This document shows, piece by piece, positions 27,198 through 61,549 of a stretch of DNA of 64,000 nt; position 1 is the stretch's first letter; each line of letters starts with the position of its first letter. This DNA is from Euphorbia lathyris. Taxonomy: Eukaryota; Streptophyta; Magnoliopsida; Malpighiales; Euphorbiaceae. The notes under the pieces were generated by a model. The model was not told where the DNA came from, did not search any database, and saw nothing but the letters and a program-made list of their open reading frames with translations. Both the position numbers and the translations under genes were made by a program. The stretch covers positions 76,525,501 through 76,589,500 of the forward strand of contig NC_088916.1 of assembly GCF_963576675.1 (NCBI RefSeq), in the 5' to 3' direction.

Positions 27198-27203
27198 CCT
27201 ATA

Positions 27204-30248: not shown

Positions 30249-33225
30249 TGTTAGACAAGGTGCCGAACGGCCTCGCCCGGGCGGACCGGGGGGTGGACAC
30301 CTCATGGCGACGTAAGCGGTGATTGGCGCCGAAAGCAACCAATCGTGGAATCAAGCTGCTCGGCAGGACCGGAGCTCGGAGATATGGAAGAGTCGCCACC
30401 CACGAATGGGAAAATGAACACCGATCCCTTGCGGGAGACCGGTGAGGGTTTGGAAAACTTAGGTACGAGCCGAGAAGGCTAGCTCCTTTCCGGAGAAAGG
30501 CTACTAGGCACCCCGACATCGCCCGGTTATGAACCACCGGCCTCCTACTCAGCGTGTTAGGCGATAACGGACTAATCGCATATTTCTTTAAGTTTAAAAT
30601 TCATTTGAAACCTTTTCTTTCTCGCTTTGAAAACCGTTTTGAGCATGTTATTTGAAAGCCATTTTAGTAAAGAATCACCCATTTTGCATAAATTTAAAGT
30701 ATATAGGAGAGAGAGGGGGAGAAGAAAGAATTGATTTATTCACAGTGTGATTTTATGTTTTAGACTATATTACATCTATGCTAATCTCACTCCCAAAAAC
30801 GAGTTTATTTACATGGTTCGTACCTTAATCGCCGTTGGAACGATTTAGGTACGTTTCAAAGCCCTGTTAATGATGATTACTTGAAACGCCGTTGGAACGA
30901 CTTGAGCATTTGAAAACGTTGAGCAAACAGTTTTAGTCTAAAAACATGATTAAGCATACAAGTCAATTTATTTTGTACAAAACCATTTAGTTAGGAAAGC
31001 AATTCAAAACTTCATTATTTACAACGAAACAATTTACAATGTTCGTTTAATCCGTCGTTGGAACGGATTAAGGTTTCAACACGTGATGTTTTGGAAACGG
31101 TTTAAAAATGATAAAAAAAGTTATTTACACTTTAGGAATATCTAGAAAAACTTTTAATTTAGACAAACAACTTGAAATCTCTTTTTGTCTTTTATTTTTC
31201 CCTTTTCACTCAATTAACCTTTACTTGAATATATTTACAAGAATGGACCATTTAAATCCCAAAAATTCACCAAATAAAACAAATTTGAAATATATACATA
31301 TAAAGGTCAAAAAGTGAAGTGAATATACATATATATATATATATATACATTTTTATCTAAAAATAAGGATATATCTATAGATTAAAAAAAAATAAGTAAA
31401 AGATACTAAATATATGTATAATAATGATAATGAAAAATACTAAGTATAATACACTTTTATCCTAATTAAAAACAGGTAAAGCAATGAACAAAGTTCATTA
31501 AGAATAAGAAAATAAACCTTATATCCCAAAATAACTATTATAATAAATATATAGAAAATAACCCTCCCCAAATATACATTAAACATCAAAATAACATCTA
31601 ATTATCCCCAAAACGTCTACTAATTAATTACCCCAAAATGCCCAAGTAAATAACCCTCTAAAATAATACCCAATATAGTTTAAATGAGTTAAAAGAAAAT
31701 ATATACATATAGTTTTGCAAAATCAAATTAATGAAAATGATACCCAAATGTACAAAATAAATAAATACATAATAAGTAATTATTAGTTATATACCTCAAA
31801 AATAATTTTAAAAAACATATTGCATAATTATACATATACATATACAAGAATAAATGTAAAAAAAGATGAGAAAAACGTTGAAAAAGGGGTTTTTTTAAGT
31901 TCCAGCAGCTTTACCGACGGAAATTCCGTCACTAAACTGCCTTTACCGACAGAAACAGAAGAATTACAGAAACAGCTCCTATATTTTCCAGATTTATTAA
32001 AAAGCTTTAGATCTGATCTAATCTATCATTTTGGCCACCGAACTACCCAAATCGGGTCATAGTCTATAACGGAGCATCCCAAAACGATGTTTTATTTCAA
32101 AACGTTAATCAAAAACATTTTTAAATTTTAGATCTACAACGTTTTAGTCCCGAACTACCCTTAAATCGGGTCACGGTTCGTATTGGGACTTAAAACGAGG
32201 TTTTCCGTTTCAAATCAAAACCAAAGATTTATTTAATGAAAACATGAAATTAATTCAACAAATCTAAACAATAAAAGTGCAAAAACAAATAAATAAATAG
32301 ATCTAAACAACAAAAAGAGATGAATAAATAAACGGGTCTAGTTCCTCGGATTATTACCTCTCAATCGGTAATAGGAATGCCAAATCAAGTCGATTGATAG
32401 TGTTTTGAGTCGGATTTTTTTGTGTTTTTGCTTTGTTCGGGTCTCGGGGAATTTTTCCAGGGGTTCGGATTTTTTTCCCCTCCTTAATGTTTTGGACTCC
32501 ATCCTATTTATAGGCAAATGGAGCCCTAAGCTTAATTTATTTTTGGCTCCAAGCCAACTTGGAGCCAAAGACAAGCTAAATTAGCTTAGGAAATTACATA
32601 GCAATTTCCTTTTCATCATTAATCATCATTATTATTATTATTTGTTATTTTATTTATTTTTTATTTTCTTTAAAAACAAATTAAAGCACTTGGCCAAAGC
32701 CAAGTGCAATTGGGTTGGGCTTGGGCGGCCCAACCCCGTCACGGGCCGTCCAACGGCCCGTGACGAAAATAGCGGCCCCCGACGGGGCCGAGTTTATATT
32801 TGTAATAAAAAAATAAAAGTAAAAAATATTTAAACAAATAAAATCTACCTAAAATTAACCGAAATCAAAAAAAGGATTTTTGTCAAAACCGATTTTATAA
32901 AATTAGCTTTTATAAAATCGATCTTTTTACAAAACTATTTTTTTATTGTTCAAATTCTACAACCAAAACCCCTATCGATCCGAGATTTCATTAATAATGA
33001 AACACCCCGAACTCGGCGAGACGATTTAAGATTTCATTATTGGAACCGATTCGCCCGTCATCTCGATTCGATTTCCGAATTCGATCAAACCGGTCTCCAC
33101 GGTTCCTTTGAACAACGTTTTTTTTATATTTATTATTTTTATTGACTCATCATTTATTTTAATCGACTGATTTTGATTCCTTTTTATAATTTTTCTTCAT
33201 CGGTCCTCCGACCCCGGTGTCTACA
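30249..33225 (-). repeat. Tat-1 3' LTR (2977 bp)
   Basis: The plus strand reads TGTTAGACAAGG at the left and GGTGTCTACA at the right, so on the element's strand it runs TGTAGACACC...TAACA. It holds the empty site (CCAATATAGTTTAAATGAG, about 31671-31689) of the MITE present in the other LTR. An AT-rich middle includes a (TA)n run near 31325-31350. Confidence 0.93.
32738..32764. repeat. Perfect GC-rich hairpin in Tat LTR
   Basis: GTCACGGGCCGT and its exact complement ACGGCCCGTGAC are separated by 3 nt. The same hairpin occurs in the other Tat-1 LTR (about 48595) and in Tat-2 (about 54011). Next to it are CACTTGGCC/GGCCAAGTG-type and GGCTCCAAG/CTTGGAGCC inverted repeats, so several hairpins lie on the upstream side of the LTR TATA box. 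Confidence 0.8.
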
Positions 33226-33238
33226 GTTGCCCCTACTT
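33226..33238 (-). other. Tat-1 polypurine tract
   Basis: On the minus strand GTAGGGGCAAC lies directly before the 3' LTR start TGTAGACACC. This is the expected place for the plus-strand primer of reverse transcription. Confidence 0.7.
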
Positions 33239-33454
33239 TCTATTTTTGACAGTGACGTGTGTGCTTTTTCGAAAACCTCTTTTCGTGAATTCAACACATG
33301 CAATGCGAAATATATTAAAGTAAAAGACACATATAGAGTGGGAGGAGAAATAACTGATCTCCATGTCGCAAGTTCCTATCTTGTCTTCAATCTTCACTTT
33401 GGCTGTCCCGTCCTTGCCTCTGAATCGGCTGCCGGCGAACGCTCCTTCTGGGGC

Positions 33455-34133
33455 CCCTAGTCTCTAAATCGACCGCAGGTAAAATGGCTCTTTCTAGCAA
33501 CCCTAGTCTAAATCGACCGCAGGTAAATGGCTTTTTCTAGCGACCCTAGTCTAAATCGACCGCAGGTAAATGGCTTTTTCTAGCGACCCTAGTCTTTATC
33601 TCGACCGCAGGTAAAGTTGCTTTTTCTAGTGACCTTAGTCTTTATCTCGACCGCAGGTAAAGTTGCTTTTTCTAGCGACCCTAGTCTTTATCTCGACCGC
33701 AGGTAAAGTTGCTTTTTCTAGCGACCCTAGTCTTTATCTCGACCGCAGGTGAAGTTGTTTTTTCTAGCGACCCTAGTCTTTATCTCGACCGCAGGTAAAG
33801 TTGCTTTTTTCTAGCGACCCTAGTCTTTATCTCGACCGCATGTAAAGTTGCTTTTTCTAGCGACCCTAGTATTTATCTCGACCGCAGGTAAAGTTGCTTT
33901 TTCTAGCGACCCTAGTCTTTATCTCGACCGCAGGTAAAGTTGCTTTTTCTAGCGACCCTAGTCTTTATCTCGACTGCAGGTAAAGTTGCTTTTTCTAGCG
34001 ACCCTAGTCTCTATCTCGACCGCAGGTAAAGTTGTTTTTTCTAGCGACCCTAGTCTTTATCTCGACCGTAGGTGAAGTTGCTTTTTCTAGCGACCCTAGT
34101 CTTTATCTCGACCGCAGGTACTCTTTCGTTTTG
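33455..34133. repeat. Tandem repeat of about 46 bp in Tat-1 3' UTR
   Basis: Fifteen copies of a unit containing TCGACCGCAGGTAAAGTTGC and TTTTCTAGCGACCCTAGTCT. The first three are 42-45 bp (without TTTATC), the rest about 46 bp. Copies differ by single bases. It lies between pol and the 3' LTR, where Tat elements are known to grow satellites. Confidence 0.95.
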
Positions 34134-34374
34134 AAATTAATCATTCAACCCTAATCTCCACATCGATCGCAGGCGTCCTTTCGTTTGCATATCTCCACAT
34201 CCATCGTTCGACCCTAATCTCTACATCGATCGCAGGCGTTTTCTTGTATTGTAGATCTCCAAATCAAACATCTGACCCTAATCTATACATCAATCGTAGG
34301 CGTTTGCTTGTTTCGCATATCTCCAAATCAACCGTTCGACCTTAATCTCTACATCGATCGCAGGTGCTCTTCAT
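34134..34374. repeat. Second tandem repeat, about 66 bp, Tat-1 3' UTR
   Basis: Four units contain CCCTAATCTCTACATCGATC and GCAGGCG, at about 34164, 34230, 34297 and 34357. The order CGACC, CTAAT/CTAGT, ATCGA/TCGAC, CGCAGG is shared with the 46-bp array, so the two are probably derived from each other. Confidence 0.85.
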
Positions 34375-34379
34375 TGATG

Positions 34380-34640
34380 GTAGCTGGGCTTTATCACTCG
34401 TTCGAGAGTTGGAATTGAGACCTCCTCCAAGAGGTTTTGACCGCAGTCGCTTTGATATTTGGGCTTTATCACTCGTCCGAGAGTTTGTGACCGCAGTCGC
34501 TTCATGCCGTAGACTAGAGTCCGTAGCGGGCCTGTGCCCATTGATAATGCTATAGACCGCAGTCCGTAGCGGGGCCTGTGCCCATTGATGATGCCATAGA
34601 CCGCAGTCCGTAGCGGGGCCTGTGCCCATAGATCGAAGCC
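34380..34640. repeat. Third tandem repeat group, Tat-1 3' UTR
   Basis: Two units of about 75 bp carry GGGCTTTATCACTCGT and GACCGCAGTCGCTT. They are followed by three units of about 46 bp with CCGTAGCGGGGCCTGTGCCC. The core GACCGCAG is kept from the previous arrays. Confidence 0.85.
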
Positions 34641-34713
34641 TGCCTAGACTTGCACAAATTTCGTGGAGCTATCCAAGTATTTCTACGTGCGGCTTGACTT
34701 AAGTCACGCCCAT

Positions 34714-36282
34714 TGATGCGGATTCCGTGAAGAACCCGATCTAAGGGATAAGTGTACCCCGTCGTTATCAAGTAATAAATTTCTGGGTTTAAGTCCAGGT
34801 TATCGTCCACAGGATTTATTTCTGCAAGTACCGAATTACTAAGTCTCGGATGTTATCTAGGCTTAGGGGGGTTTTGAGTTTGGTTTTGTTTAATTAATCT
34901 ACTCCTAGGTTGAATTACACTAATTCTAATTAAGTTATCTAATTCTAGCTAAGTTATTCTAAGCCTAACTAAATTACTCTACCCCTAATTGATCTTTTAC
35001 CAAAGCAATCAGACTGAATGAACATGAAGGAATACGATGATAACAATGATAGAGTGTTTAAGCAATTGAATTGAAACTAAGTCGCTTATGTCCAAGGCGA
35101 TTAACCCGACCTATCCTCCTAAAGTCCCTAGTTCGTGATTCCCTTGTAAGGCCGAAACTAGCTCTAAGGCTCAGTAATTTGGGCTTAATCTTCTATAGGG
35201 TCGTCAATCCTATAGGCACTGACTAGGTCAGATTCAGCTCGCAATATGTGCCAACCTAATTTTGGGATTATCGAATGAGTTAAACCAATCAGACAAAGCG
35301 TAAGACAAAGATTAAAACATCAAAACAGTTGAATAAACAAAATCTATATTATATATCAAAGATGAAGGAATTGTCACGAAGTTACAATAAACCTAGAATT
35401 CATAGCATGTATCAGAGGCTAGACAGAATATAAAAGAAGAAAAATCCCTTTCAGGGAACCTGTCTACCAATGCAGGCGTCTTTCTAGGATTTAAGGATGG
35501 AGCTTGAGTAATCCTCGGTGAATGGAGCTTCGGAGGTGTCTTCAATGGAGGTTTGAAGGTTATGGAGGAGGTGGAGAGGATTTCTCAAGGTGGAAGCTAA
35601 GCTAATTACAAAAGTAAAAGATATCTAATTTACAATTGAAAATTTCTATTTATAGACGCGTCTCGGGCCTCGTTTTGACCTAATTTCGTGTCCTTGTTGG
35701 TGTAGGAAGACGTGGGGCCGAACGTGGCTTCGTGGGGGCGGAATTGGTCTTTTTGACCAATTCCCGCAGGTCTGCTCGCCGAGCAGGAAAGGCTGCTCGC
35801 CGAGCAGGATTGCGACGAGCAGCCCCTGCTCGCCGAGCAGGCGCCTGGCGCCCTGCTCGGCGAGCAGAAATGGCCCCTGGGGCCCTGCTCGCCGAGCGTT
35901 TTCGCCCGAAGCGCGCTCGATCCGTACCGGATGACTTCCAAACCCTTTTTCGTCTGAACTTACACCTGCACACGCATAAAAACTCCAGAAAACATTAGTC
36001 CAAAAGCCGAATTGATCCGTCAATCGCTTATTTTGAGCAAACGCTTCGTTTGGTGCGACTTTTGACGGACCAATTAGCTTCAAAAGATAACAGAATTCTA
36101 TTATGCGTGTTATTTCGGCCGTATTTGCCTAAATTGATCACAAAACGAGCCTAAACGACGAAAAGTAAATAGAATGCTTCCAATTTCTAACTAACTCACA
36201 CAAAAGCATTTAAATGCGAGAATTGCTCGCTTATTAGCCAAATAAACCTAAAAACCGTCCTAAAAACCTAAAACCCCTATCA
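34714..36282. mobile_element. Solo LTR, 1569 bp, inserted in Tat-1
   Basis: It starts TGATGCGGATTCC, ends CCCCTATCA and is flanked by CCCAT (34709-34713 and 36283-36287). There is no coding region or PBS/PPT, so this is one LTR left by recombination between two. Its lineage is not certain. It carries five copies of CTGCTCGSCGAGCAG between 35772 and 35898. It interrupts the 5' part of the antisense ORF of Tat-1. Confidence 0.85.
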
Positions 36283-36420
36283 CCCATCATCTGGTGAGTA
36301 TTGTATAACCTAGTGTAGTGATATGTATGCACATGATTATGAATGAATGTATGTATATTTTCTCTTTTTTTTTCTTCTTTCTCCTTTTTTACATTGCTTC
36401 CCTCCTATTTTTCTTTACAG

Positions 36421-36744
36421 GGAGGCCTCCATTTTATGGACCAAAGAGTACAGGAGGGCGTGGCGGCCGGGCGAGGAGAGTCACTACGGAATGATGACGC
36501 TCAGTTTTTACATCGTTATCGAGAGATGGAGGATGAGTGCTCCAGCTGGGAGGAGCGAGGTCGGGCAACCGAGGAGAGGAGCCGTGTGGATATAGAGGTC
36601 CAGCGAGCTGTTGAGGAGAGTTTGCGGATTGCGGTAAAGGGTCATCGGGTTGCCGAGGAGGCCTTAGCCGAGGAATGGGCACCTTACTTCAGAGGCTTTG
36701 ATTCACTTGAGGGCTTTTGGGACTTTGGGGTTCCTCCTCCTTGA
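36421..36744 (+). CDS. Antisense ORF (aORF-like) of Tat-1, last exon
   Basis: This open frame runs against the element, between pol and the 3' LTR. It is preceded by a strong acceptor (pyrimidine tract, TTTCTTTACAG at 36420) and a donor CTG|GTGAGT at 36293/36294, giving a 127-bp intron with phase-0 joining. The upstream exon is open from 34648 but is cut by the solo LTR at 34713. The product is charged and probably coiled-coil (MEDECSSWEERGRATEE, VQRAVEESLRIAV) and ends FWDFGVPPP. Antisense ORFs at this place are reported for other Tat elements. I recognise no domain, and whether it is expressed is unknown. Confidence 0.5.
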   Translation, partial: GGLHFMDQRVQEGVAAGRGESLRNDDAQFLHRYREMEDECSSWEERGRATEERSRVDIEVQRAVEESLRIAVKGHRVAEEALAEEWAPYFRGFDSLEGFWDFGVPPP

Positions 36745-37205
36745 TAGTCCCGTCAGTGTTTTGGTTTACGACTTTATTAGTACTATCGTGATGTATAGTG
36801 GGTATATGTGAAAAAGATGTTTGTGTAGGCTTTTTATTTGGTGGTGGGGAAAAGAAATGTATAACTCATGACTTGTAATACCATACATTCAGTCGATCAT
36901 AATCATTTCAAACATTCTCTTCGAGTATATTCATGCCTTTATTTATTTACAAGCAACAGAAATACTTAGCCACTTACACATTATTTCCATAATTGCTCAA
37001 GATATAACTACTGTTACCAAGACCCGCCTTTTTTCGGTTTTCAGGTCCCAGCGATTTTTCAACTCTCCTTTTATTATCCCGGAATTTTCAAATGAGCGCC
37101 CTCTTGGGTTTTCACTCATTGGGATGTCCCTTATTGTTGCATAGATCACCCTTTGCGGGTTTTCAACCTATCGGGAATTTTTATTTCTTTTTATTTCTTT
37201 TTTTT

Positions 37206-40200
37206 TTACGAAAAGTATTTCTTAAGCCTATCTAGATTGGTAGGTTTGGAGAACTCAATGCCATCCATCGTGGTTAGTTTCACCGCCCCTTTGTTTAGGA
37301 TCTTCTTCACGAGAAACGGTCCTTCCCAGTTTGGCCTAAACTTGCCCCTAGGGTCGGTGCGCGTCATTCGGATCTGTTTCAGCACCATGTCTCCTTCTTT
37401 GATAGGACTGACCTTAACCCTTTCGTTGAAAGCCCGGGCCATCCTCCTTTGATATAGCTGTATATGGTAAAGGGCCTCCATCCTCTTCTCGTCTACCAAT
37501 GCCAGCTGTTCATAACGCTTCTTCACCCATTCTGCTTTAGGAATCTCTACTTCTATCGCGATTCTCAGCGATCGCTTCTCAACCTCAATAGGCAGAACCG
37601 CTTCTGCCCCATATACTAAGGAGAATAGCGTTGCCCCAGTTGACGCTCTAACCGTCGTGCAATAAGCCCATAAAGCGAGCGGAAGCTGCTCGTGCCAATT
37701 CCGATGCGATGCTACTGTCTTTACGAGAATCCTCATAAGGTTCTTATTGGCCGCTTCTACTGCCCCGTTAGCTTGTGGGCGATATGAAGACGATCTATGA
37801 TGCTCAATACCGTACTCTTGGAAGAGACTTTTCACTTCCCCTTGAAACTGGATCCCATTATCCGTGATCATGTGGTGAGGCACCCCAAACCTGGTGATTA
37901 GATGCTTTACAATAAACTTTCTCATCTGCTTTGATCCCAGCTTACTAAACAATTCTGCCTCTACCCACTTGGTGAAGTAATCAATGGCAACTGCGATGAA
38001 CTTGTGTCCATTTGATGCATTAGGCCTCACCTCACCGATGATATCATTGCCCCAAGCTGCAAACGGCCAAACGGGTGCCAACACATGCAGTTCCATAGCT
38101 GGCAGGTGATTATAATCGCCATGGATTTGACAATCGTGGCATTTCTTCGCATATTCATTGCAATCTCTTTCCATAGTGAGCCAATAGAAGCCTTGCCTTA
38201 TGATTTTCTTTGCTAGCACTGCTCCTCCCTTGTGGGCTCCATAAATTCCCGAGTGCACTGACTCCATTACTTCACGGCCTTCTCCCTCGTCTAAACATCT
38301 CAATTGTAACCCATCGGTGTGCCTTTTGTAAAGCAGATCGTTGTGGATAACAAATTTCTGAGCTAGCCTTCTGATCACAGCCTGATCCCTAAGTTCTGAT
38401 CCCGCCGGATACATCCCGTTTTTCATGAAGTTCACGATGTCGAAATACCAAGGCTTTTCATCCACTCCTAGCAACATTACGTCTTCATAGCACGGTTTGT
38501 GAGACCTCTTTAGCACCAAAGGCTTTGAGGCCAGATTTCGTGGATTATCCCAAACTGACACCAGAGTGGCCAAAGCATCCGCCGCTTGGTTCTGTGCTCG
38601 AGAGATGTGATAAAAGCGACACTCATTGAATCTCTGTGCCAACCCTTCTAATTGGTCCAGGTACGGGCGCAACCTTTCCTCCCTTACTTCCCAATTTCCT
38701 TGTGCCTGTTCGATGATCAGCTTTGAGTCGCCCCAGATTTCGACATACGATGCTCCCAATACTGCTAGTGACTCTAACCCGTAGATGCACGCTTCATACT
38801 CGGCCATATTGTTAGTAAGAGGGAATGATAACTTCTTCGCCATTGGGATCCTTTCTCCTTTCGGTGAGATGAGTAGCAGTCGTACCCCGGCTCCATTCGA
38901 GTGAACTGCTCCATCGAAGAACATTTTCCATGGTATAACTTCTACTGCGTTCAAGTGCTCATCGGGGAAGTCATAGTTTATCTCTTCTTCTTCCGCAGTT
39001 AGAGGCTGATTGGCTAAAATTTTTGCTACGGCTCTCCCTTTAATAACCTTCTTCGTCATATATTCGATGTCGAACTCTGATAATAACAACAACCATCGGG
39101 CCAGCTTCCCAGTTAGAGATGGAGTTCGATACAGATACTTCACGGGATCCATCCAGGATATAATGATCACCTTGTAGGACTGAAAATAGTGTCGTAGCTT
39201 CCTTGTTAGCCATACTACTGCCACACACATCTTTTCGATCATGTTATACTTGAGCTCATATTCCAGGAATTTCATACTCAGATAATACACCGCATACTCC
39301 ACACCGATGTCCCCTTCTTGGGCCAGCATTGCCCCAATAGATCGCTCCTCGATCGCCACATATAGAAGAAGTGGTTTCTCGAGTTTAGGTGGCCTCAAAA
39401 CTGGCGGATTAGTCAAATAAGTCCGTACACCCTCCAGCGCTTGCTGACACTTATCATTCCAAATTGTGGGTTGATCTTTCCGTAACAGCTTAAAAATGGG
39501 TTCACAGATCATGGTGAGTCGTGCTATGAACCGACTGATATACTGAACCTGCCCCAGGAATCCCCTTACTTCTTTCTCATTCTTCGGTGCCGACATTTCC
39601 TGTATGGCTTTCACTTTATCGGGATCCACCTCAATCCCCTTGTTACTGATTACGTAGCCTAGGATTTTCCCCGACGAAACGCCAAAGAAGCACTTCTTCG
39701 GGTTCAACCTTAGCTTGAATTCTGCGATTCGGGCCAAAAACTTCTCAAGTGCTATGAAGTGCCCTTCTCTTGTATCCGAATTGACCATCATATCATCCCC
39801 ATAGACCTCCACCTCTTTGTGTATCATGTCGTGGAATAGTGCCGTAGCCATTTGCTGATAAGTTGCCCCGGCGTTTTTTTTTAAACCAAATGGCACTACT
39901 CTATAGCAACATGTCCCCCACTCAGTAGTGAACGAGGTCTTTGCTTTGTGCTTCTCGGCCATCTGAACCTGCATGTAGCCCATGAAGCCATCCACATTCG
40001 TGTGCAAGACGCTTGATGCTGCACTGTCGATCAATACATCGATGTGAGGCAATGCGAATTCATCTTCAAGCCTTGTTGAGATCTCTATAGTCGACGCACA
40101 TTCGCACCTTACCGTCCTTCTTTGCGATTGGCACTACATTTGCCACCCACGACGGATATTCAATTACTTCGATGAAACCTGCCTCTAACTGTTTCTTCAC

Positions 40201-40344
40201 TTCTTCCCTGATCTTATCTACCCATTCTGGCCTCATGCGTCGGAGCTTTTGCTTTACGGGTTTAGCATCGAGGTATTTTGGAATACGGTGAGCTACGATG
40301 GATTTATCGGTTTCAGGCATGTCTTCGTACGTCCAAGCAAACAC
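37206..40344 (-). pseudogene. Tat-1 pol: RT, RNase H, archaeal-type RNase H, integrase
   Basis: The first part (40344-40066) reads VFAWTYEDMPE and VRMCVDYRDLNKA and ends at a TGA caused by a roughly 5-bp deletion relative to Tat-2. The second frame (40052-37206, 948 codons) has RT with catalytic YGDD at residues 84-87 where Tat-2 has YVDD. A degenerate RNase H follows at about 210-320, then a second RNase H of the archaeal type with Asp380, Glu418/420, Asp442 and Asp492. The integrase has His600, His607, Cys638, Cys641 and the triad Asp670, Asp731, Glu766. It ends RLKKYFS just before the 3' region. No chromodomain, as expected for Tat. Known role: copying RNA to DNA and inserting it. The frameshift removes a joined product. 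Confidence 0.92.
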
Positions 40345-40613
40345 TATTTCGTATTTTTTTTAATTATTCTCTCAAATTCTTTCCTCTCTTCAATAGTTAA
40401 TTCTTGAGCAATTTGTATAAGTTTAGGATTTTCATCCGTGCCAAGATTGAAAGTTGACATTTCTATTGTATTGATTTCAAATGTAGGCATGTTATATGAA
40501 TGAGAATGCATGGAATGATCAGAATCAACATCAAGCAAGTAAGCAAAATCAGAATTCATTTCATTGATAGTATTGGTGAGTACATCATCAGATTCAAACA
40601 AAGCGGTAATCTA
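40345..40613 (-). other. Gag-pol junction: TAG then A-run slippery site
   Basis: Gag stops at TAG (40613-40611), but the same frame continues open through ITALFESDD and NLGTDENPKLIQIAQEL, which is normal pol N-terminal sequence. It then meets A-AAA-AAT. A shift of -1 there would enter the frame of YE-VFAWTYEDMP. Tat-2 has the same TAG and the same heptamer. Readthrough and frameshifting are inference. Confidence 0.55.
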
Positions 40614-43568
40614 GTTGTCATCAACAGGGTTCTCGAGTTTCTCATAAGTCTTAGAGGTACTGGGCTCATCCACCGCTCCCACAGTGGCCTCAATAGTGAT
40701 CACCTGCTCCTCAGCATTCAGGTCAAGCATCATGATCCCCTCTATGAAGCAGCATGCATTTCTTTTGCCCCAGTCAGTAACATCTTTGAAGATCTTAAAT
40801 CCGGGCAGATTCTTTCCCTCGGTGCCTCGGCCCGACTCTACCATTACGACAATTTCCGGCTCGTCATCAGACTCATCCCATATATGGATTGGAGCTTTCT
40901 GATTGATACCTTCCTCTTCCGAGGAACTTCCCCAGATATCCACAACAACCAGATCCATCATGTGAGGGACGTTCGGATTTACGTAGGAAGGGTCCGACGA
41001 TCCATACCGAGCCCATCCTATAACCTCATCATAATCCTTCAAGAACACCCTACTCAACCTCTTTGCCACAAGTGGAATAGCACCCTTTCGGATGCACATG
41101 AGTTGCTCCTGATCGCTTAAGGTGACCTGACATGAAGCATACTTGAACCTCCGCCTTCTTGCGTAATCCACAAATGCTTCTTCGGGAAATTGCTTGATCC
41201 TTTCTAAATCTTCCAACGACCCCGTCCACGGAATGTACATCTCATACCTTTGCACAAAGGCCTCCATAAGGGACCCCCAGTCCCCTTTTGTCTTTGCCGA
41301 GAGCATTCGGTGCCACATCAAAGCTTCTCCGATGAGTGTCTTTGGAAAATGCTGAACCAACTCACTTCGATAGAGTCCCGCGTCAAACATGTAGGCACGG
41401 AAACGGTTTACATGATCGATGGGGTTCTCATCTCCCTTGTACTTAGCCTTGGTTAACACTTCCTCAGGTGTCTCCTCATCGAGTGACTCAAGCATTTCCT
41501 CTGGATGTCCCCATGCGGTGCATTTCTTGATGAATCTCTTAGTCATTTCAGCCCAGTTCACCGTAACATTCATCGGAAGAGACATATACCACACCAGCGA
41601 TTCTCCTGTCAACGAGTTGCAAAACAAACTCGTGATTTCCTCCCCTTTGAAGCCCAACGGCCCCATCACTGACAAGTAGAAGTGCAAATGCTCCATAGGG
41701 TCTTTGTTGCCGTTATACTTACTAACTGCTGGCAACGGGCGCTTGATGGGCCCAACCTGCATTGCGCTACTTTCTGCCGCTCTCTCTTTAGCCTTCTTAT
41801 ACTTTTCCAAGAATAAACTTGCCAATTGTGACCAATCACCCTTGATGGAATCAGGCAAGGATCGGAACCACTCCAAAGGCTCGCCTATCAACGAAGGGTG
41901 GAACCACTGAGCGATCTCATTAATCCCAAACGGTTCAACAAACATAGCACACATATACTCATACAAGTGGACCTCAGGGTCCTCCACCCCACTGAATATC
42001 TTTAACTCAAGAATAATTCTCCGAGATGACCCCTGCTTGGTCTCTTCAGTGTCATCTTCGTCATATGGCGCTCCATCGCCCAATTCCTCATCTATCATCT
42101 CGCCCACTGTTTCCTCTCCCGGAAAAGACACATACAATCCGCTTCCTATCGTCATTTTCTCATCGGAGTCCAACAGCTCCTCTTCATCCTCCTCAAAGGA
42201 TTCTACCACCGTACTCTCCTCGAGCCCGGATTCGATCATACTTACCCTATGATTAGGAAATGGATTGCGCCTAGTGGAAGGGTTTGCTGATGATGGATCA
42301 GCTATCTTTTTCTCTTCAATCAAATTTTGAACCTCATGCTTCAACCTCTCACAGTTCTCAATAGTGTGCCCGTAGTTGCTATGGAACTCACAGTACCCCC
42401 TAGCTTGCATCTGAGGAGTAGACGGTGCTTTTCCATTAGGAGTGAGGGCTTTCAACAATCCCCTTTTCTGCAATCGTTCGAAAACTTTTGCGTAGCTTTG
42501 ATCAAACTTGGCGAACTGCCTCTTTTCGATAGCGTTAAGTTCAAGCACTTTCACTGCGGCTGATTCTGTACTCGCACTTGGCCCTCCGGCACTATATCCA
42601 GACTTCGTCCACTTAGTGTAAGCTTTCTTCGGCTCTCCATCCCCCTCAACTGTCAAGGCACAACTATACATCTGATTGAAATCGGTAAAAGGCATATACC
42701 GCAGCTCATTCTTAATATACGGCAACGTGTTACCAACTACCATTCGGATCTGATCCTGCTCAAGCGGCTTCTGCTTTATGATTGCCGCCTTGGCTCTCCA
42801 CCTTCTCACAAAATCGGAAAAAGACTCACCAGTTTGTTGCTTAGTACTCTCCAGCTTCTTCAGGGTAACCTCAAGCATAGTGTTGAAACTATATCGGGCG
42901 ATGAATGACTTTGCCAACTCCTTCCAATCTCTCTTCGTCACCAGTGGCAACGCATGAAACCATACGAGGGCCGCTCCCTCCAGATAGGTATTGAATAGTC
43001 CCAGGACTTGATCCTCAGTTAGGATCGTGTGCTTCATTACTGCGACATACTGATTCATGTGAGCCGTGGGATCCCCGGTTCCATCGAACTTTTTCATGTC
43101 CGGAAGCCGGAATTTCAAAGGCAAAGCAGTTGCCGACAAGCAGTTTTTCAAATTATAAAAGTCTTGACTCCCGGAACTTCCCCCACGCAGATCCTGCATC
43201 TCCTGAGTGATGTGCTGCTTCCACTCCTCTTCCTTAGACTTCTCTTTCTCAAGCTGTTTCTGGATATAATCCTGATAGTCATCTTCGTTCCCGAGGCGGG
43301 GACCAGCGTTCACTTCATTCTCAGCGCGCTTACTACCACTCTTGTTATCCTTCAACGCTAGCTCGGCGAGCTGGGCCAAAATTACGGCCAACTGATCATT
43401 AATGTTGTTCACAGAGGTTTCTAATTCGGCCACTTTTTCGTCGGTCGTAGACATACTGGCAGAAGACTGAGTATACTTGGACGAAGGTGATTCAGAAGCC
43501 ACAATTGCTGATTCAACCCGTAGCTGATCAGACTGCCTGGCTAGTCGATTACTCTCGCGAAACCACAA
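40611..43568 (-). CDS. Tat-1 Gag polyprotein with four capsid-like modules
   Basis: 985 codons without a stop. After a coiled-coil-like region (about 40-125) comes a first retrotransposon-gag module, then a zinc knuckle of the Cx2Hx4Hx4C form (Cys393 to Cys406), an acidic linker (455-515) and three more modules. The modules start at F161, F525, Y618 and Y710 with [FY]xGxx[DN]P. Each has a Trp 42 residues on (203, 567, 660, 752), a second Trp 12 further (215, 579, 672, 764), a Phe 7 further, and Tyr (Cys once) 4 further. Only modules 1 and 4 keep the C-terminal half. No DTG/DSG-like protease motif is seen. The start used is an alternative: Tat-2 begins at an ATG, and the corresponding ATG here (43605-43603) is out of frame by one base. 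Confidence 0.88.
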   Translation of the reverse strand: MWFRESNRLARQSDQLRVESAIVASESPSSKYTQSSASMSTTDEKVAELETSVNNINDQLAVILAQLAELALKDNKSGSKRAENEVNAGPRLGNEDDYQDYIQKQLEKEKSKEEEWKQHITQEMQDLRGGSSGSQDFYNLKNCLSATALPLKFRLPDMKKFDGTGDPTAHMNQYVAVMKHTILTEDQVLGLFNTYLEGAALVWFHALPLVTKRDWKELAKSFIARYSFNTMLEVTLKKLESTKQQTGESFSDFVRRWRAKAAIIKQKPLEQDQIRMVVGNTLPYIKNELRYMPFTDFNQMYSCALTVEGDGEPKKAYTKWTKSGYSAGGPSASTESAAVKVLELNAIEKRQFAKFDQSYAKVFERLQKRGLLKALTPNGKAPSTPQMQARGYCEFHSNYGHTIENCERLKHEVQNLIEEKKIADPSSANPSTRRNPFPNHRVSMIESGLEESTVVESFEEDEEELLDSDEKMTIGSGLYVSFPGEETVGEMIDEELGDGAPYDEDDTEETKQGSSRRIILELKIFSGVEDPEVHLYEYMCAMFVEPFGINEIAQWFHPSLIGEPLEWFRSLPDSIKGDWSQLASLFLEKYKKAKERAAESSAMQVGPIKRPLPAVSKYNGNKDPMEHLHFYLSVMGPLGFKGEEITSLFCNSLTGESLVWYMSLPMNVTVNWAEMTKRFIKKCTAWGHPEEMLESLDEETPEEVLTKAKYKGDENPIDHVNRFRAYMFDAGLYRSELVQHFPKTLIGEALMWHRMLSAKTKGDWGSLMEAFVQRYEMYIPWTGSLEDLERIKQFPEEAFVDYARRRRFKYASCQVTLSDQEQLMCIRKGAIPLVAKRLSRVFLKDYDEVIGWARYGSSDPSYVNPNVPHMMDLVVVDIWGSSSEEEGINQKAPIHIWDESDDEPEIVVMVESGRGTEGKNLPGFKIFKDVTDWGKRNACCFIEGIMMLDLNAEEQVITIEATVGAVDEPSTSKTYEKLENPVDDN

Positions 43569-45526
43569 CCGCTTAATGATGAAGTCTGCGTGGACGGTCG
43601 TCCATTAATATATATGCATGATTTTATATGTATGATTCGTGGTGTGTGCGTTTATTCATTTATGGATATATAAGATAAGAAGAACAAACGTTAGTCTAGT
43701 TACACGTATCACAACATCTCTCTTCCACCCTTATTCCTCCACGCACTCGATGGTCCCAGTCTCTTCCCTAGGATTTTGGTTTGGGGCTCACATTGCGGTC
43801 CAGGGGACGCGTGATGCCATCGATTATTGCGGAAAATTAAATCATTCATCATACAATACAGTTCGTTTTTGACGCATCAGCGTTTAGTGACTACGAAATC
43901 GACCAAGTTGGATTGTCCTTTCGGAATAACTCGTCTTTTGTCCTTTCGCGAGACGTATTAGTTCGGGTTTTGACTCCCTTTGAGCGCATCTCAATTTTTA
44001 GACGTGGTACGAGTTATTCTTCTAGTCCAATCGTTCGTTATTGACGATGACCCGTTCCCTTTTATTTGCGTGAGTTCGTGTCTCGATTTTTGGATTACAA
44101 CGGGATCTTTTGGATCTATCAAGAGATGCAGCCACGTGTTTATTTAGTGATGAAATCACTTTTGGATTTTATTTTAGGGAACGGACTCATCGCGTAACGC
44201 GTTTGTTCTTAGCGTCGAGGATCCGTTTGCTCATTTTAGCTACGTGAAAAGACGATGAGTCTTATTTTGAGCGCACGGTAATCTTTCGGCTAGCAACAAT
44301 TCATTGTTCTTCCCAATCCACGGGATATATCATCTTGGTGTGGTTATAGAAAATCAACGTTTCGTTGAATCGCGTGTTTGTTCGAAGCGAGGATATCACC
44401 GTTTTCTTTCCTTTAGGCGCGAATTAAGCAAACACGTACATCGGGCCATATTTCTTGCAGTTTTGGTAACGGTCGAAATGATCGAGTCGTTAGTCAAAAC
44501 CCGCAGTCTCGTCCATATGGCGCAATTATGCGGTTTGGCTTAATTCGGCTTCGAGATTTTAAACGGGGTATACACTCGTTCGAGGCACGTATTCAACGGC
44601 ATTGGTTTATTTTCTTTAACTACTCTCGGGATTGACATATATCGTAGATTCGGAATGATTTTGGTCGTTTAGTTCATTTTTCGCTTTTCTTTTCTTAGTC
44701 ACTTCTACGGACACGTCCATTTCTCTTAAGAACGACACAGGGCATAACGTAAAAGCTCGTCTTTTATTCGGAAGGGACGGGCTACTTGTGCGAAACTTTT
44801 CACGTTACGACAGGGTCATTCAAAACAGAAATGTTCTTCGTTTTCGTTTCGTTATGATCTCGTTTTATCCCAATTTATTTAAAGAATGTGAATAACGGCT
44901 ACTGTTAATATAGTCTTTTGTATCGGAATGTAACTATCCTTAACACCAAACCGATTCATACTAATACGTGCTTACGTCATAACGTATTTCCTGAACGTGT
45001 GCCTTCGTCGGGACACAGAAAGGGACAAGGCGGGCCGCACATGTTCATTCATACGAGATGGCTAAGTCGTCTTTAGTTCAAATCGTTTCGATGTTTTAGG
45101 GTAATTAGTACACCGATTCAAGAGTATATATTAACGCATCGTCTCATTTTCTTTATATACTTTAGGATTTAGACACGTATCATGGCGATTTGAAAACACA
45201 AACTGATTCATTTATCACACCAAAAATAGTAACGGGTAATCCTATGGCAACTTCTAAGGCTACTATATGCTGACACGGCTGAGCGCGGGACCTCACAGGA
45301 CCGCACAAATTCGCCCCTAACGAATGGATGGGGACCCTTTGGCGCCTTACTGTAAGGGGGAACTTACACTAGCCTCTTTCGAGCGACGAATGGACTCTCG
45401 CTAGAGGTTTCGCGGAAATTACCCAAAAGGTTTGCAATAATGCACATGAATGCATACGAAAAGAAATAATACGATCCGTCCCCGTTAAGGGCTTAATACA
45501 CGCCTTCCGGAATCAAATTTCTCGCT
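43569..45526 (-). other. Tat-1 leader between PBS and gag
   Basis: About 2 kb without a supported ORF. The same leader stands in Tat-2 (56647-58564), recognisable but diverged. It would hold the packaging signal. The ORF1 known upstream of gag in Ogre elements is not visible. Confidence 0.6.
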
Positions 45527-45544
45527 TCCCCAGCAGAGTCGCCA
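45527..45544 (-). other. Tat-1 primer binding site
   Basis: On the minus strand TGGCGACTCTGCTGGGGA starts 2 nt after the LTR end TAACA. The same 18-mer stands at 56629-56646 in Tat-2. It resembles the PBS reported as tRNA-Arg type for Ogre elements; the tRNA was not verified. Confidence 0.8.
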
Positions 45545-46973
45545 CTTGTTAGACAAGGTGCCGAACGGCCTCGCCCGGGCGGACCGGGGGGTGGACACCT
45601 CATGGCAACGTAAGCGGTGATTGGCGCCGAAAGCAACCAATCGTGGAATCAAGCTGCTCGGCAGGACCGGAGCTCGGAGATATGGAAGAGTCGCCACCCA
45701 CGAATGGGAAAATGAACACCGATCCCTTGCGGGAGACCGGTGAGGGTTCAGGAAACTTAGGTACGAGCCGAGAAGGCTAGCTCCTTTCCGGAGAAAGGCT
45801 ACTAGGCACCCCGACATCGCCCGGTTATGAACCACCGGCCTCCTACTCAGCGTGTTAGGCGATAACGGACTAATCGCATATTTCTTTAAGTTTAAAATTC
45901 ATTTGAAACCTTTTCTTTCTCGCTTTGAAAACCGTTTTGAGCATTTTATTTGAAAGCCATTTTAGTAAAGAATCACCCATTTTGCATAAATTTAAAGTAT
46001 ATAGGAGAGAGAGGGGGAGAAGAAAGAATTGATTTATTCACAGTGTGATTTTATGTTTTAGACTATATTACATCTATGCTAATCTCACTCCCAAAACGAG
46101 TTTATTTACATGGTTCGTACCTTAATCGCCGTTGGAACGATTTAGGTACGTTTCAAAGCCCTGTTAATGATGATTACTCGAATCGTCGTTGGAACGACTT
46201 GAGCATTTGAAAACGTTGAGCAAACAGTTTTAGTCTAAAAACATGATTAAGCATACAAGTCAATTTATTTTGTACAAAACCATTTAGTTAGGAAAGCAAT
46301 TCAAAACTTCATTATTTACAACGATACAATTTACAATGTTCGTTTAATCCGTCGTTGGAACGGATTAAGGTTTCAACACGTGATGTTTTGGAAACGGTTT
46401 AAAAATGACAAAAAAAGTTATTTACACTTTAGGAATATCTAGAAAAACTTTTAATTTAGACAAACAACTTGAAATCTCTTTTTGTCTTTTATTTTTCCCT
46501 TTTCACTCAATTAACCTTTACTTGAATATATTTACAAGAATGAACCATTTAAATCCCCAAAATTTACCAAATAAAACAAATTTGAAATATATACATATAA
46601 AGGTCAAAAAGTGAAGTGAATATATATATATATATATATATTTATCTAAAAATAAGGATATATCTATAGATTAAAAAAAAATAAGTAAAAGATACTAAAT
46701 ATATGTATAATAATGATAATGAAAAATATTAAGTATAATACACTTTTATCCTAATTAAAAACATGTAAAGCAATGAACAAAGTTCATTAAGAATAAGAAA
46801 ATAAACCTTATATCCCAAAATAACTATTATAATAAATATATAGAAAATAACCCTCCCCAAATATACATTAAACATCAAAATAACATCTAATTATCCCCAA
46901 AACGTCTACTAATTAATTACCCCAAAATGCCCAAGTAAATAACCCTATAAAATAATACCCAATATAGTTTAAA

Positions 46974-47532
46974 GGGTAATTAATTTATTAGTCCCTATAT
47001 TTTGACAAAACACACTGTTTAGTCCCTGTATTTTCAAAAACACATGGTAAGGACCCTAACCTTTTTCTCAGTGAACTGTTTAGTCCTTCCGTCTGTTTGT
47101 TACATTTTTTACCGTTTATGACTTCAGAAATGACTAAATTACCCTTTACTATTTACCTTCAAACTTCAGAAGAGTAATCCAATTTAGAAGAAGAAGTTAT
47201 TTGCATGGAGAACAATAAAAAGAACAGACTCAACGCTTACGAATTTGAACGTTTAAGAAGAAAATTAAGAACAAGAACACTCAAAGTTGATTTCAGATGC
47301 ATTAGAGTTTAAAGGAAAGCAAAATAAAGGAAAAGAAGAACACAAATCCAAATTGACTAACAGAATCTTCATGAGAGTCTAACGGCAGGGACTAAATAGT
47401 TCACCAAGAAAAACATTAGGGACTAAACAGTTCACCGAGAAAAAAGTTAGGGACTTTAGTGTGTGTTTTTGAAAATACAGGGAGTAAACAGTGTGTTTTG
47501 TCAAAATATAGGGACTAATAAATTAATTACCC
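46974..47532. mobile_element. 559-bp Mutator-like MITE in the Tat-1 5' LTR
   Basis: Ends GGGTAATTAATTTATTAGTC and its inverse are flanked by a perfect 9-bp duplication TAGTTTAAA (46965-46973 and 47533-47541). The other LTR of the same element has the site empty with one TAGTTTAAA. No coding capacity. Confidence 0.95.
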
Positions 47533-48361
47533 TAGTTTAAATGAGTTAAAAGAAAATATATACCTATAGTTTTGCAAAATCAAATTAATGAAAAGGATAC
47601 CCAAATGTACAAAATAAATAAATACATAATAAGTAATTATTAGTTATATACCTCAAAAATAATTTTAAAAAACATATTGCATAATTATACATATACATAT
47701 ACAAGAATAAATGTTTAAAAAGATGAGAAAAATGTTGAAAAAGGGGTTTTTTTAAGTTCCAGCAGCTTTACCGACGGAAATTCCGTCACTAAACTGCCTT
47801 TACCGACAGAAACGGAAGAATTACAGAAACAGCTCCTATATTTTCCAGATTTATTAAAAAGCTTTAGATCTGATCTAATCTATCATTTTGGCCACCGAAC
47901 TACCCAAATCGGGTCATAGTCTATAACGGAGCATCCCAAAACGATGTTTTATTTCAAAACGTTAATCAAAAACATTTTTAAATTTTAGATCTACAACGTT
48001 TTAGTCCCGAACTACCCTTAAATCGGGTCACGGTTCGTATTGGGACTTAAAACGAGGTTTTCCGTTTCAAATCAAAACCAAAGATTTATTTAATGAAAAC
48101 ATGAAATTAATTCAACAAATCTAAACAATAAAAGTGCAAAAACAAATAAATAAATAGATCTAAACAACAAAAAGAGATGAATAAATAAACGGGTCTAGTT
48201 CCTCGGATTATTACCTCTCAATCGGTAATAGGAATGCCAAATCAAGTCGATTGATAGTGTTTTGAGTCGGATTTTTTTGTGTTTTTGCTTTGTTCGGGTC
48301 TCGGGGAATTTTTCCAGGGGTTCGGGTTTTTTTCCCCTCCTTAATGTTTTGGACTCCATCC

Positions 48362-48369
48362 TATTTATA
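48362..48369 (-). promoter_or_regulatory. TATA box in Tat-1 5' LTR
   Basis: On the minus strand CCTATAAATAGG lies in the LTR about 2.8 kb before the PBS. It is conserved in Tat-2 at 54346-54353. This is the likely core promoter for element transcription; the start site would be about 30 nt downstream. Confidence 0.6.
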
Positions 48370-49087
48370 GGCAAATGGAGCCCTAAGCTTAATTTATTTT
48401 TGGCTCCAAGCCAACTTGGAGCCAAAGACAAGCTAAATTAGCTTAGGAAATTACATAGCAATTTCCTTTTCATCATTAATCATCATTATTATTATTATTT
48501 GTTATTTTATTTATTTTTTATTTTCTTTAAAAACAAATTAAAGCACTTGGCCAAAGCCAAGTGCAATTGGGTTGGGCTTGGGCGGCCCAACCCCGTCACG
48601 GGCCGTCCAACGGCCCGTGACGAAAATAGCGGCCCCCGACGGGGCCGAGTTTATATTTGTAATAAAAAAATAAAAGTAAAAAATATTTAAACAAATAAAA
48701 TCTACCTAAAATTAACCGAAATCAAAAAAAGGATTTTTGTCAAAACCGATTTTATAAAATTAGCTTTTATAAAATCGATCTTTTTATAAAACTATTTTTT
48801 TATTGTTCAAATTCTACAACCAAAACCCCTATCGATCCGAGATTTCATTAATAATGAAACACCCCGAACTCGGCGAGACGATTTAAGATTTCATTCTTGG
48901 AACCGATTCGCCCGTCATCTCGATTCGATTTCCGAATTCGATCAAACCGGTCTCCACGGTTCCTTTGAACAACGTTTTTTTTATATTTATTATTTTTATT
49001 GACTCATCATTTATTTTAATCGACTGATTTTGATTCCTTTTTATAATTTTTCTTCATCGGTCCTCCGACCCCGGTGTCTACAGCTGA

Positions 49088-58564: not shown

Positions 58565-61549
58565 ATGGATACCGTTCGCGCAGACTTCATCATTAAGCGG
58601 TTGTGGTTTCGTGAGAGTAACCGGCTAGTCAGGCAGTTTGATCAGCTACAAATTGACAACTCCGAATCGGCAGTTGTGGCTTCTGAATCATCTTCGTCCG
58701 AGTATAGTCAGTCTTCTGCCAGTATGTCTGCGACCGACGAAAAGGTGGCCGAATTGAAAAACTCTGTGAACAACATTAATGATCAGTTGGCCGCAATTTT
58801 GGCCCAGCTCGCTGAGCTAACATTGAAGGATAACAAGAGTGGTAGCAAACGCGCTGAGAATGAAGTGAACACCGGTCCCCGCTTCCGGAACGAGGATGAC
58901 TATCAGGATTATATCCAGAAACAGCTTGAGAAAGAAAAGGCTAAGGAAGAGGAGTGGAAGCAGCACATCACTCAGGAAGTGCAGGATCTGCATGGGGGAA
59001 GTTCCGGGAGTCAAGACTTTTATAATTTGAAGAACTGATTGTGGGCAACGGCTTTGCCCTTGAAATTCTGGCTCCCGGACATGAAGAAGTTCGATGGAAC
59101 TGGGGATCCCACGGCTCACATGAATTAGTATGTCGCAGTAATGAAGCACACGATCCTAACTGAGGATCAAGTCCTGGGACTATTCAATACCTATCTGGAG
59201 GGAGCGGCCCTCGTATGGTTTCATGCGTTGCCGCTGGTGATGAAGAGAGATTGGAAGGAGTTGGCAAAGTCATTCATCGCCCAATATAGTTTCAACACTA
59301 TGCTTGAGGTTACTCTGAAGGAGCTGGAGAGTACTAAGCAACAAACTGGTGAGTCTTTTTCCAATTTTGTGAGGAGGTGGAGAGCCAAGGCGGCAATCAT
59401 GAAGCAGAAGCCGCTTGAGCAGGATCAGATCCGAATGGTAGTTGGTAACACGTTGCCGTATATTAAGAATGAGCTGCGATATATGCCTTTTACCGATTTC
59501 AATCAGATGTATAGTTGTGCCTTGATAGTTGAGGGGGATGGAGAGCCGAAGAAAGCTTACACTAAGTGGACGAAGTCTGGATATAGTGCCGGAGGGCCAA
59601 GTGCGAGTACAGAATCAGCCGCAGTGAAAGTGCTTGAACTTAACGCTATCGATAAGAGGCAGTTCGCCAAGTTTGATCAAAGCTACGCAAAAGTTTTCGA
59701 ACGATTGCAGAAAAGGGGATTGTTGAAAGCCCTCACTCCTAATGGCAAAGCACCGTCTACTCCTCAGATGCAAGCTAGGGGGTACTGTGAGTTCCATAGC
59801 AACTACGGGCACACTATTGAGAACTGTGAGAGGTTGAAGCATGAGATTCAAAATTTGATTGAGGAGAAAAAGATAGCTGATCCATCATCAGCAAACCCTT
59901 CCACTAGGCGCAATCCATTTCCTAATCATAGGGTAAGTATGATCGAATCCGGGCTCGAGGAGAGTACGGTGGTAGAATCCTTTGAGGAGGATGAAGAGGA
60001 GCTGTTGGACTCCGATGAGAAAATGACGATAGGAAGCGGATTGTATGTGTCTTTTCTGGGAGAGGAAATAGCGGGCGAGATGATAGATGAGGAATTGGGC
60101 GATGGAGCGCCAAATGACGAAGATGACACCGAAGAGACCGGGCAGGGGTCATCTCGGAGAATTATTCTTGAGTTAAAGATATTCAGTGGGGTGGAGGACC
60201 CTGAGGTCCACTTGTATGAGTATATGTGTGCTATGTTTGTTGAACCGTTTGGGATTAATGAGATCGCTCAGTGGTTCCACCCTTCGTTGATAGGCGAGCC
60301 TTTGGAGTGGTTCCGATCCTTGCTTGATTCCATCAATGGTGATTGGTCACAATTGGCAAGTTTATTCTTGGAAAATTATAAGAAGGCTAAAGAGAGAGCG
60401 GCAGAAAGTAGCGCAATGGAGGTTGGGCTCATCAAGCGCCCGTTGCCAGCAGTTAGTAAGTATAACGGCAACAAAGACCCTATGGAGCATTTGCACTTCT
60501 ACTTGTCAGTGATGGGGCCGTTGGGCTTCAAAGGGGAGGAAATCACGAGTTTGTTTTGCAACTCGTTGGAAGGAGGATCGCTGGTGTGGTATATGTCTCT
60601 TCCGATGAATGTTAAGGTGAACTGGGCTGAAATGACTAAGAGATTCATCAAGAAGTACACCGCAGGGGGATACCCAGAGGAAGTGCTGATGTTACCTGAT
60701 GAGGAGACACCTGAGGCGGTGTTAACCATGGCTAAGTACAAGGGAGGTGAGAACCCCATCGACCACATAAACTGTTTCCGTGCCTACATGTTTGACGCAG
60801 GACTCTATCGAAGTGAGTTGGTTCAGCATTTTCCAAAGACACTCGTAGGAGAAGCTTTGATGTGGCACCGAATGCTCTCGGTAAAGGCAAAAGGGGACTG
60901 GGGGTCCCTCATGGAGGCTTTCGTGCAGAGATATGAGATGTACATCCCGTGGACTGGGTCATTGGAAGATTTAGAAAGGATCAAGCAATTTCCCGAGGAA
61001 GCATTCGTGGATTATGCTAGGAGATGGAGGTTCAAGTATGCCTCATGTCGGGTCACCTTGAGCGATCAGGAGCAACTCATGTGTATCTGAAGGGGTGCTA
61101 TTCCACTCATCGCTACAAGAATGAATGGAGTGTTCCTCAGGGACTATGAAGAACTGATAGGCTGGGCTGGGTATGGATCGTCGGACTCTTCCTATGTAAA
61201 TCCGAACGTCCCTCACATAATGGATCTGATGGTCGTGGATATTTGGGGAAGTTCCTCCGACGAGGAGGGTATCAATCAGAGAGTTCCGATCAACATCTGG
61301 GATGAGTCTGATGATGAGCTGGAAATGGCTGCTAACACCGAAGGAAAGATTCTGCCAGGTTTTGAGATCTTCAATAATGTTACCGACTGGGGCAAAGGAG
61401 AAGCAAGCTGTTTCATCGAGGAGATTATGATGTTAGATCTTAATGCCGAGGAGCAGGTGATCACTATTGAGGCCACTGTGGGAGCGGTGGATGAGCCCAG
61501 TACCTCCAAGACTTATGAGAAACCCGAGAACCCTGTTGATGACAACTAG
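58565..61549 (+). pseudogene. Tat-2 Gag with four capsid-like modules (three private stops)
   Basis: It starts at ATG 58565 and stays in one frame to TAG 61547-61549, the same terminal codon as in Tat-1. Private nonsense codons are TGA at 59036, TAG at 59126 and TGA at 61088. All four modules are present (FDGTGDP, FSGVEDP, YNGNKDP, YKGGENP), as is the zinc knuckle CEFHSNYGHTIENC. In module 3 the Tyr that is Cys in Tat-1 is kept (RFIKKY). Again no protease motif is visible. Confidence 0.88.

Follow-up and report, generated by a model that had tools for sequence, protein, structure and literature searches.

The gag gene of Tat-1, a long terminal repeat (LTR) retrotransposon in a 64,000-nucleotide stretch of the Euphorbia lathyris genome (NC_088916.1, positions 76,525,501 to 76,589,500; hereafter the window), encodes a Gag polyprotein with four modules that belong to the retrotransposon gag/capsid family PF03732. 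LTR retrotransposons and retroviruses normally encode a single capsid domain per Gag together with a protease that cuts the polyprotein. We propose, at about an even chance for the explanation as a whole, that Tat-1 represents a protease-less Tat-like lineage whose uncleaved four-module Gag assembles as a concatenated capsid. Four selected modules without a detectable protease provide a natural test of concatemer assembly and of the need for maturation.

Four capsid modules in one Gag

The gag open reading frame (ORF) of Tat-1 and its parts are located as follows, in window coordinates.

40611..43568, minus strand: gag ORF, 985 codons plus a TAG stop, first ATG at residue 39 (43452-43454)
42639..43118, minus strand: module 1 (M1), residues 151-310, a whole capsid with N-lobe and C-lobe, ahead of the zinc knuckle
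42351..42392, minus strand: zinc knuckle, residues 393-406, C-x2-H-x4-H-x4-C from the translation
41796..42014, minus strand: module 2 (M2), residues 519-591, a predicted N-lobe without a C-lobe
41517..41741, minus strand: module 3 (M3), residues 610-684, a predicted N-lobe without a C-lobe
41001..41450, minus strand: module 4 (M4), residues 707-856, a second whole capsid with N-lobe and C-lobe
40614..41000, minus strand: gag tail, residues 857-985, a putative relic of a gag-protease linker by its match to the Hevea protein P0001
40611..40613, minus strand: TAG between gag and pol, conserved across copies
40345..40610 (approximate limits), minus strand: conserved sequence after the TAG, at first in the gag frame

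The Gag chain thus runs N- and C-lobe, zinc knuckle, N-lobe, N-lobe, N- and C-lobe. An earlier reading of this DNA from sequence alone (the sequence-only reading) had described four segments with identically spaced core residues, and the ORF translation bears this out exactly: [FY]xGxx[DN]P stands at residues 161, 525, 618 and 710 with identical spacing, and Trp at +42, Trp at +54, Phe at +61 and Tyr, Tyr, Cys and Tyr at +65 are all present. The residue positions likewise match the division of the modules around the zinc knuckle, one before and three after, and both pairwise alignment and hhalign show that the C-terminal half is kept by M1 and M4 only. No ATG lies upstream of residue 39 in Tat-1; in five of the six copies compared, all but Tat-1, an in-frame ATG is found further upstream, in one of these five with an intervening stop. 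The front of the protein has 42% identity to Hevea P0001 over 96% of residues 140-430, and the zinc knuckle pattern is also conserved there.

A PF03732 profile search with the whole Gag yields 81.9 bits (E 4.1e-23) in four stretches. Searched one by one, the modules score 31.3 (M1), 19.9 (M2), 17.7 (M3) and 36.1 bits (M4), so that M1 and M4 lie above the curated threshold of 24.1 for this family and M2 and M3 singly below it, with E values of 8.5e-4 and 4.1e-3. Smith-Waterman alignments of the six module pairs give z scores of 16-28 (300 shuffles) and are gapless over 65-75 amino acids, and that of M1 with M4 is gapless over 145; pairs that include a control stretch from the same protein (n = 15, the row for the window's presumed Athila element excluded) give z scores of -1.7 to 2.9. 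Profile-profile comparison by hhalign against single-capsid gags, M1 included, assigns probabilities of 97.6% to M2, 97.9% to M3 and 98.7% to M4, and about 0.1% to each of three control stretches.

M2 modelled alone with AlphaFold2 has a predicted local distance difference test score (pLDDT) of 82.8 and matches capsid lobes in structure, and the alignment to M1 indicates that it is an N-lobe. The sequence-only reading had taken modules 2-4 for retrotransposon gag; the profile scores relate them to that family rather than setting them apart, and M2 has the predicted fold of a capsid lobe. A predicted capsid fold for each module is obtained in part, for M2 modelled alone, M3 and M4 having been modelled within a low-pLDDT model of M2-M4. 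A phmmer search of M4 alone against the PDB finds no capsid match. M2-M4 are 27-32% identical to M1 and 26-32% identical to Hevea or Hibiscus gags, and the module tree does not resolve a parent capsid for M2-M4.

The layout recurs across copies and subfamilies

Tat-2, a second element in the window that is inverted relative to Tat-1 and extends past the window end, carries the same four modules in its gag.

58601..61549, plus strand: gag of Tat-2, with three in-frame stops

The identity of layout between the two elements, claimed from the sequence alone, is thus confirmed despite those stops, and it extends to the genome. A search of 1.02 Gb gave 14,268 first-look candidates, of which the best 46 were scored; all 46, Tat-1 counted, share the layout, 44 cover residues 1-985, and six are free of stops. 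An assembly error was considered as the source of the array and is countered by its presence in every scored copy. With a slightly relaxed pattern, all four motifs are found in 21 of 27 distinct copies (30 loci minus two near-identical and one short), one or two being lost in the other six.

More distant copies fall into further subfamilies. Subfamily C, found with P0008 as the query, has a gag 60-70% identical over the longest matches; M2 and M3 occur in 11 of its 12 loci, split over two frames in three, M4 is full in eight and partial in one more, and L034 matches up to residue 493 only. The tail of Tat-2, from about residue 681 onward, represents a third subfamily, B, and is matched in all 150 places scored out of 4,772 candidates. 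L050 and L046, which is Tat-2 itself, are like Tat-1's subfamily, A, as far as M3. Mosaic copies (L026 and Tat-2) have an A-like front and a rear 13-16% diverged, with differing breakpoints, and their sequences point to recombination between subfamilies. The layout had been read as older than both window copies; it also predates the split of subfamilies whose synonymous sites are partly saturated.

Protein searches, in a pool where plant proteins seem sparse, reveal no other multi-module gag and no match to residues 500-870, and a scan of viral contigs gives no match. The remaining protein searches match eight different proteins, seven with one PF03732 stretch and one, P0003, with none. The latter, from E. 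lathyris, is a predicted gene in which duplicated portions of pol are fused to a zinc-knuckle stretch of this gag family, and is probably an annotation chimera.

Selection on the modules

Selection was measured in 13 sequences, namely Tat-1 and the 12 of 22 loci (L034-L055) with one frame across M2-M4, as the ratio of nonsynonymous to synonymous substitution (dN/dS) in 10 of 78 possible pairs, five between subfamilies and five within B or C. Between A and C (Tat-1, L037) dN/dS is 0.09 for M1, 0.04 for M3 and 0.24 for M4; synonymous divergence (dS) is saturated in M2, for which the probability under neutrality is 3.9e-6. Between A and B (Tat-1, L048) it is 0.06 for M3 and 0.10 for M4, with M2 again saturated (P 2.8e-10), and between B and C (three pairs) 0.16-0.28 for M2, 0.05-0.24 for M3 and 0.12-0.19 for M4. 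The linker gives 0.22-0.29 in the five between-subfamily pairs. Tat-1 and Tat-2 differ in M4 (residues 709-856) with a ratio of 0.12, and the ratios are 0.10-0.16 for M2-M4 within C and 0.12-0.21 for M2 within B. These P values are not independent, since pairs share ancestry and copies are mosaic. Between subfamilies, purifying selection acts on each of the four modules (dN/dS about 0.04-0.3, or by P where dS is saturated), which argues that M2-M4 are not debris. The dS of M1 between A and C, near 1, means at 1.3e-8 substitutions per site and year that these subfamilies diverged tens of millions of years ago.

That the array is functionless recombination debris, open by chance, was prompted as a candidate by 27 recent copies, among which M1 is constrained (0.15-0.16) and the ratios for M2, M3 and the M4 N-lobe reach 0.98, 0.82 and 0.70 at a dS of only about 0.02. 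Within B, moreover, M3 is unconstrained in two of three pairs, one of them with zero synonymous changes, M4 has ratios of 0.44-0.69 in all three pairs on few synonymous changes, and some mosaic breakpoints fall inside gag. We read the weak constraint among recent copies as young, partly post-insertion variation. Purifying selection on every module in all five between-subfamily pairs overturns the neutral reading, provided that the alignments are right, and the diverged loci L048, L052, L053 and L055 retain open frames, free of stops over the part compared; we regard debris as very improbable.

Protease and the gag-pol boundary

The Hevea relatives have the order zinc knuckle, linker, protease, and the Gag tail after M4 matches the P0001 linker (z 10.7, 0 of 1000 shuffles). 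With Hevea and Hibiscus proteases as tblastn queries the best E is 0.14 in 15 loci (14 copies, one contributing two stretches) and 1.5 in the window, a six-frame protease pattern is absent from the Tat-1 interior and from Tat-2 up to the window end, and Pfam reports no protease in the gag and pol ORFs; pattern and tblastn both missed the protease of the window's Athila-like element, so these searches could overlook a distantly related one. Reverse transcriptase (RT) is detected in all 15 of those loci at 1e-76 or better, and each of the two query proteases recovers the protein of the other, at 38-41% identity (E 6e-31 and 9e-22). A protease hidden in another frame or part of the element was also considered, and tblastn, six-frame pattern and Pfam returned nothing for it. 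In subfamily C the same pre-RT sequence follows the gag end in the four loci examined, which makes a protease at the usual place unlikely there.

TAG closes gag in all 30 close copies, in all 10 Tat-2-tail loci and in three of four subfamily C loci, and at 168 nt the conserved stretch behind it is still in the gag frame in 29 of the 30 close copies. Its simplest reading is TAG read-through in the copies whose frames match. The RT of the close copies, which starts about 500 nt past gag, carries a single frame-breaking lesion common to 29 of 30 (L001-L030); the remaining one, L026, lacks the shared lesion, yet has a stop in RT and further breaks in pol. Three subfamily B loci, L048, L051 and L054, keep the 260 compared RT residues in one frame without a stop. 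A YxDD motif is found in 26 of the 30 close loci (YGDD in 13, YVDD in 11, YRDD in two). Because 29 copies inherited one RT lesion, movement was probably by borrowed enzymes: the recent spread of the window's subfamily, whose four-module Gag is open in six of 46 copies, probably depended on outside enzymes.

The same observations, namely an undetected protease and an RT broken in nearly every close copy despite recent spread, suit a parasite whose extra modules act in trans: its Gag would enter the particles of protease-bearing relatives and be carried along or poison them, as a decoy or a form of copy-number control. Capsid-derived interferers of this kind are described in two papers, in which RTL8 binds the N-terminal domain of the PEG10 capsid and lowers particle yield (PMC11684626) and the capsid-derived Ty1 p22 interferes with a relative's particles (PMC4599808). 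However, M2-M4 are no closer to M1 than to the Hevea and Hibiscus gags, so that they give no clear sign of binding the M1-like capsid of a partner, and we hold such action in trans to be a possibility of the lesser sort.

A proposed concatenated capsid and its alternatives

We rate a concatemer as the likeliest use of the four modules, with interference with, or hitch-hiking on, protease-bearing relatives as its main rival; a lattice of fused modules and decoy modules had both been raised in the sequence-only reading. Ribosomes would make Gag, and occasional read-through of the TAG would give Gag-Pol where a copy's frame allows. With no protease apparently encoded by the element, the Gag chain would remain covalently joined and form a concatenated capsid. 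Each chain would occupy several places in the lattice, M1 and M4 serving as complete capsid units and M2 and M3 through N-lobe contacts, and this lattice would surround RNA bound at the one zinc knuckle. Where RT is broken, as in Tat-1, Pol would come from other copies or families. That the lineage gave up protease-driven maturation altogether, dropping its protease and building its particle from covalent four-module capsid concatemers that can do without cleavage, is a more tentative proposition, which we consider doubtful.

Several points weigh against this concatemer. A protease might be supplied in trans, in which case the chain may be cut. RT begins in the gag frame in only nine of 30 close copies, the frame being lost mostly at an A run of variable length, so that read-through alone is insufficient for Gag-Pol in most copies. 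The joint model of M2-M4 has a mean pLDDT of 46, with values of about 70-84 across most of the M4 C-lobe, and the fit of the M2 model is about equally good to N-lobes and to capsid C-lobes (PEG10, Ty1 prime). M2 also evolves faster than M3, and its role may therefore be looser. The weak constraint on M2, M3 and the M4 N-lobe among recent copies, and on M3 and M4 within B, counts against the concatemer as well.

A capsid C-lobe mediates dimerisation, and M2 and M3 lack one. These two modules might instead serve as peptide-binding adaptors, by analogy with the N-lobe of Arc, a binder of short ligand peptides, and would then bring host or Pol proteins into the particle; among the structures to which the M2 model fits well are those of the Arc N-lobe in complex with peptides from stargazin and GKAP. 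We think this role unlikely.

Relation to known elements

Tat hallmarks in the pol ORF of Tat-1, namely RT_RNaseH and RVT_3 followed by integrase with no chromodomain reported by Pfam, together with resemblance to proteins of Hevea and Hibiscus, identify the element as probably Tat-like Ty3/gypsy. As described by Neumann et al. 2019 (PMC6317226), plant Tat elements share its RT, RNase H, second RNase H-like domain and integrase, and long LTRs with tandem repeats, as in Tat-1, are reported there for large non-chromoviruses; they differ in having one capsid module, not four, and in their protease, not found here. M1 and the zinc knuckle resemble those of Hevea P0001. The set GAG-PROT-RT-RH-INT that marks an autonomous element is incomplete here, the protease domain being undetected by two-query tblastn.

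TR-GAG elements (PMC8704663) likewise keep gag without other functions and move in trans; they consist of a single GAG ORF, whereas here pol is retained (948 codons) and gag expanded, and some copies keep a stop-free RT stretch, unlike TR-GAGs. Some Retand clusters also lack a protease, according to PMC11963269, in which GAG is recorded merely as present or absent, LTRs measure 315-1194 bp as against about 3 kb here, and an antisense TRP28 ORF lies between pol and the 3' LTR. Among the 17 ORFs listed for that interval in Tat-1, the five considered for TRP28 (two antisense, three sense) have no Pfam match.

Arc and PEG10 contain one capsid-derived unit per protein. Like the modules described here, Arc, PEG10, RTL8 (PMC11684626) and Ty1 p22 (PMC4599808) are capsid-derived. 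RTL8 and p22 likewise have one such unit, and none of the four is an array inside an element's Gag. Literature text searches, with subscription journals mostly outside their scope, found no description of tandem gag or capsid modules among the matches listed. Elements with multi-copy domains were removed by Neumann et al. 2019 as likely incorrectly predicted (PMC6317226), and such Gags may thus have been overlooked elsewhere. The listed literature agrees with the suggestion that this architecture is new, and we class it as a novel form of Gag within a lineage of Tat-like Ty3/gypsy elements; the failure to find a protease, the conserved TAG and the evidence of selection are additions to the sequence-only reading.

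Tat-1 and its neighbours in the window

Tat-1 spans 30249-49082 on the minus strand, and its remaining features are as follows.

37206..40052, minus strand: pol ORF, 948 codons, with partial RT, RNase H, RVT_3 and integrase (Pfam)
45547..49082, minus strand: 5' LTR, containing an insert of about 560 bp (46973-47533)
30249..33225, minus strand: 3' LTR, with the 5-bp target duplication GCTGA

The pol frame is broken upstream, within RT. The LTRs differ by 25 mismatches over 2987 aligned columns, which dates the insertion to about 0.3 million years ago at a substitution rate of 1.3e-8 per site and year. The insert in the 5' LTR has 114-bp inverted ends and is possibly a small DNA transposon. Directly inside the 3' LTR lies an array of 46-bp tandem repeats (33476-34224); large plant non-chromoviruses are reported to carry tandem arrays (PMC6317226).

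Two other elements share the window. The one at 25100-29300, which we take to be Athila-like, has a gag of the usual kind, with one capsid (PF03732, 70.7 bits), and its pol has decayed. The ORF at 4464-6203 (579 codons, RVT_1 125.9 bits) encodes a reverse transcriptase, presumably non-LTR and RTE-like.
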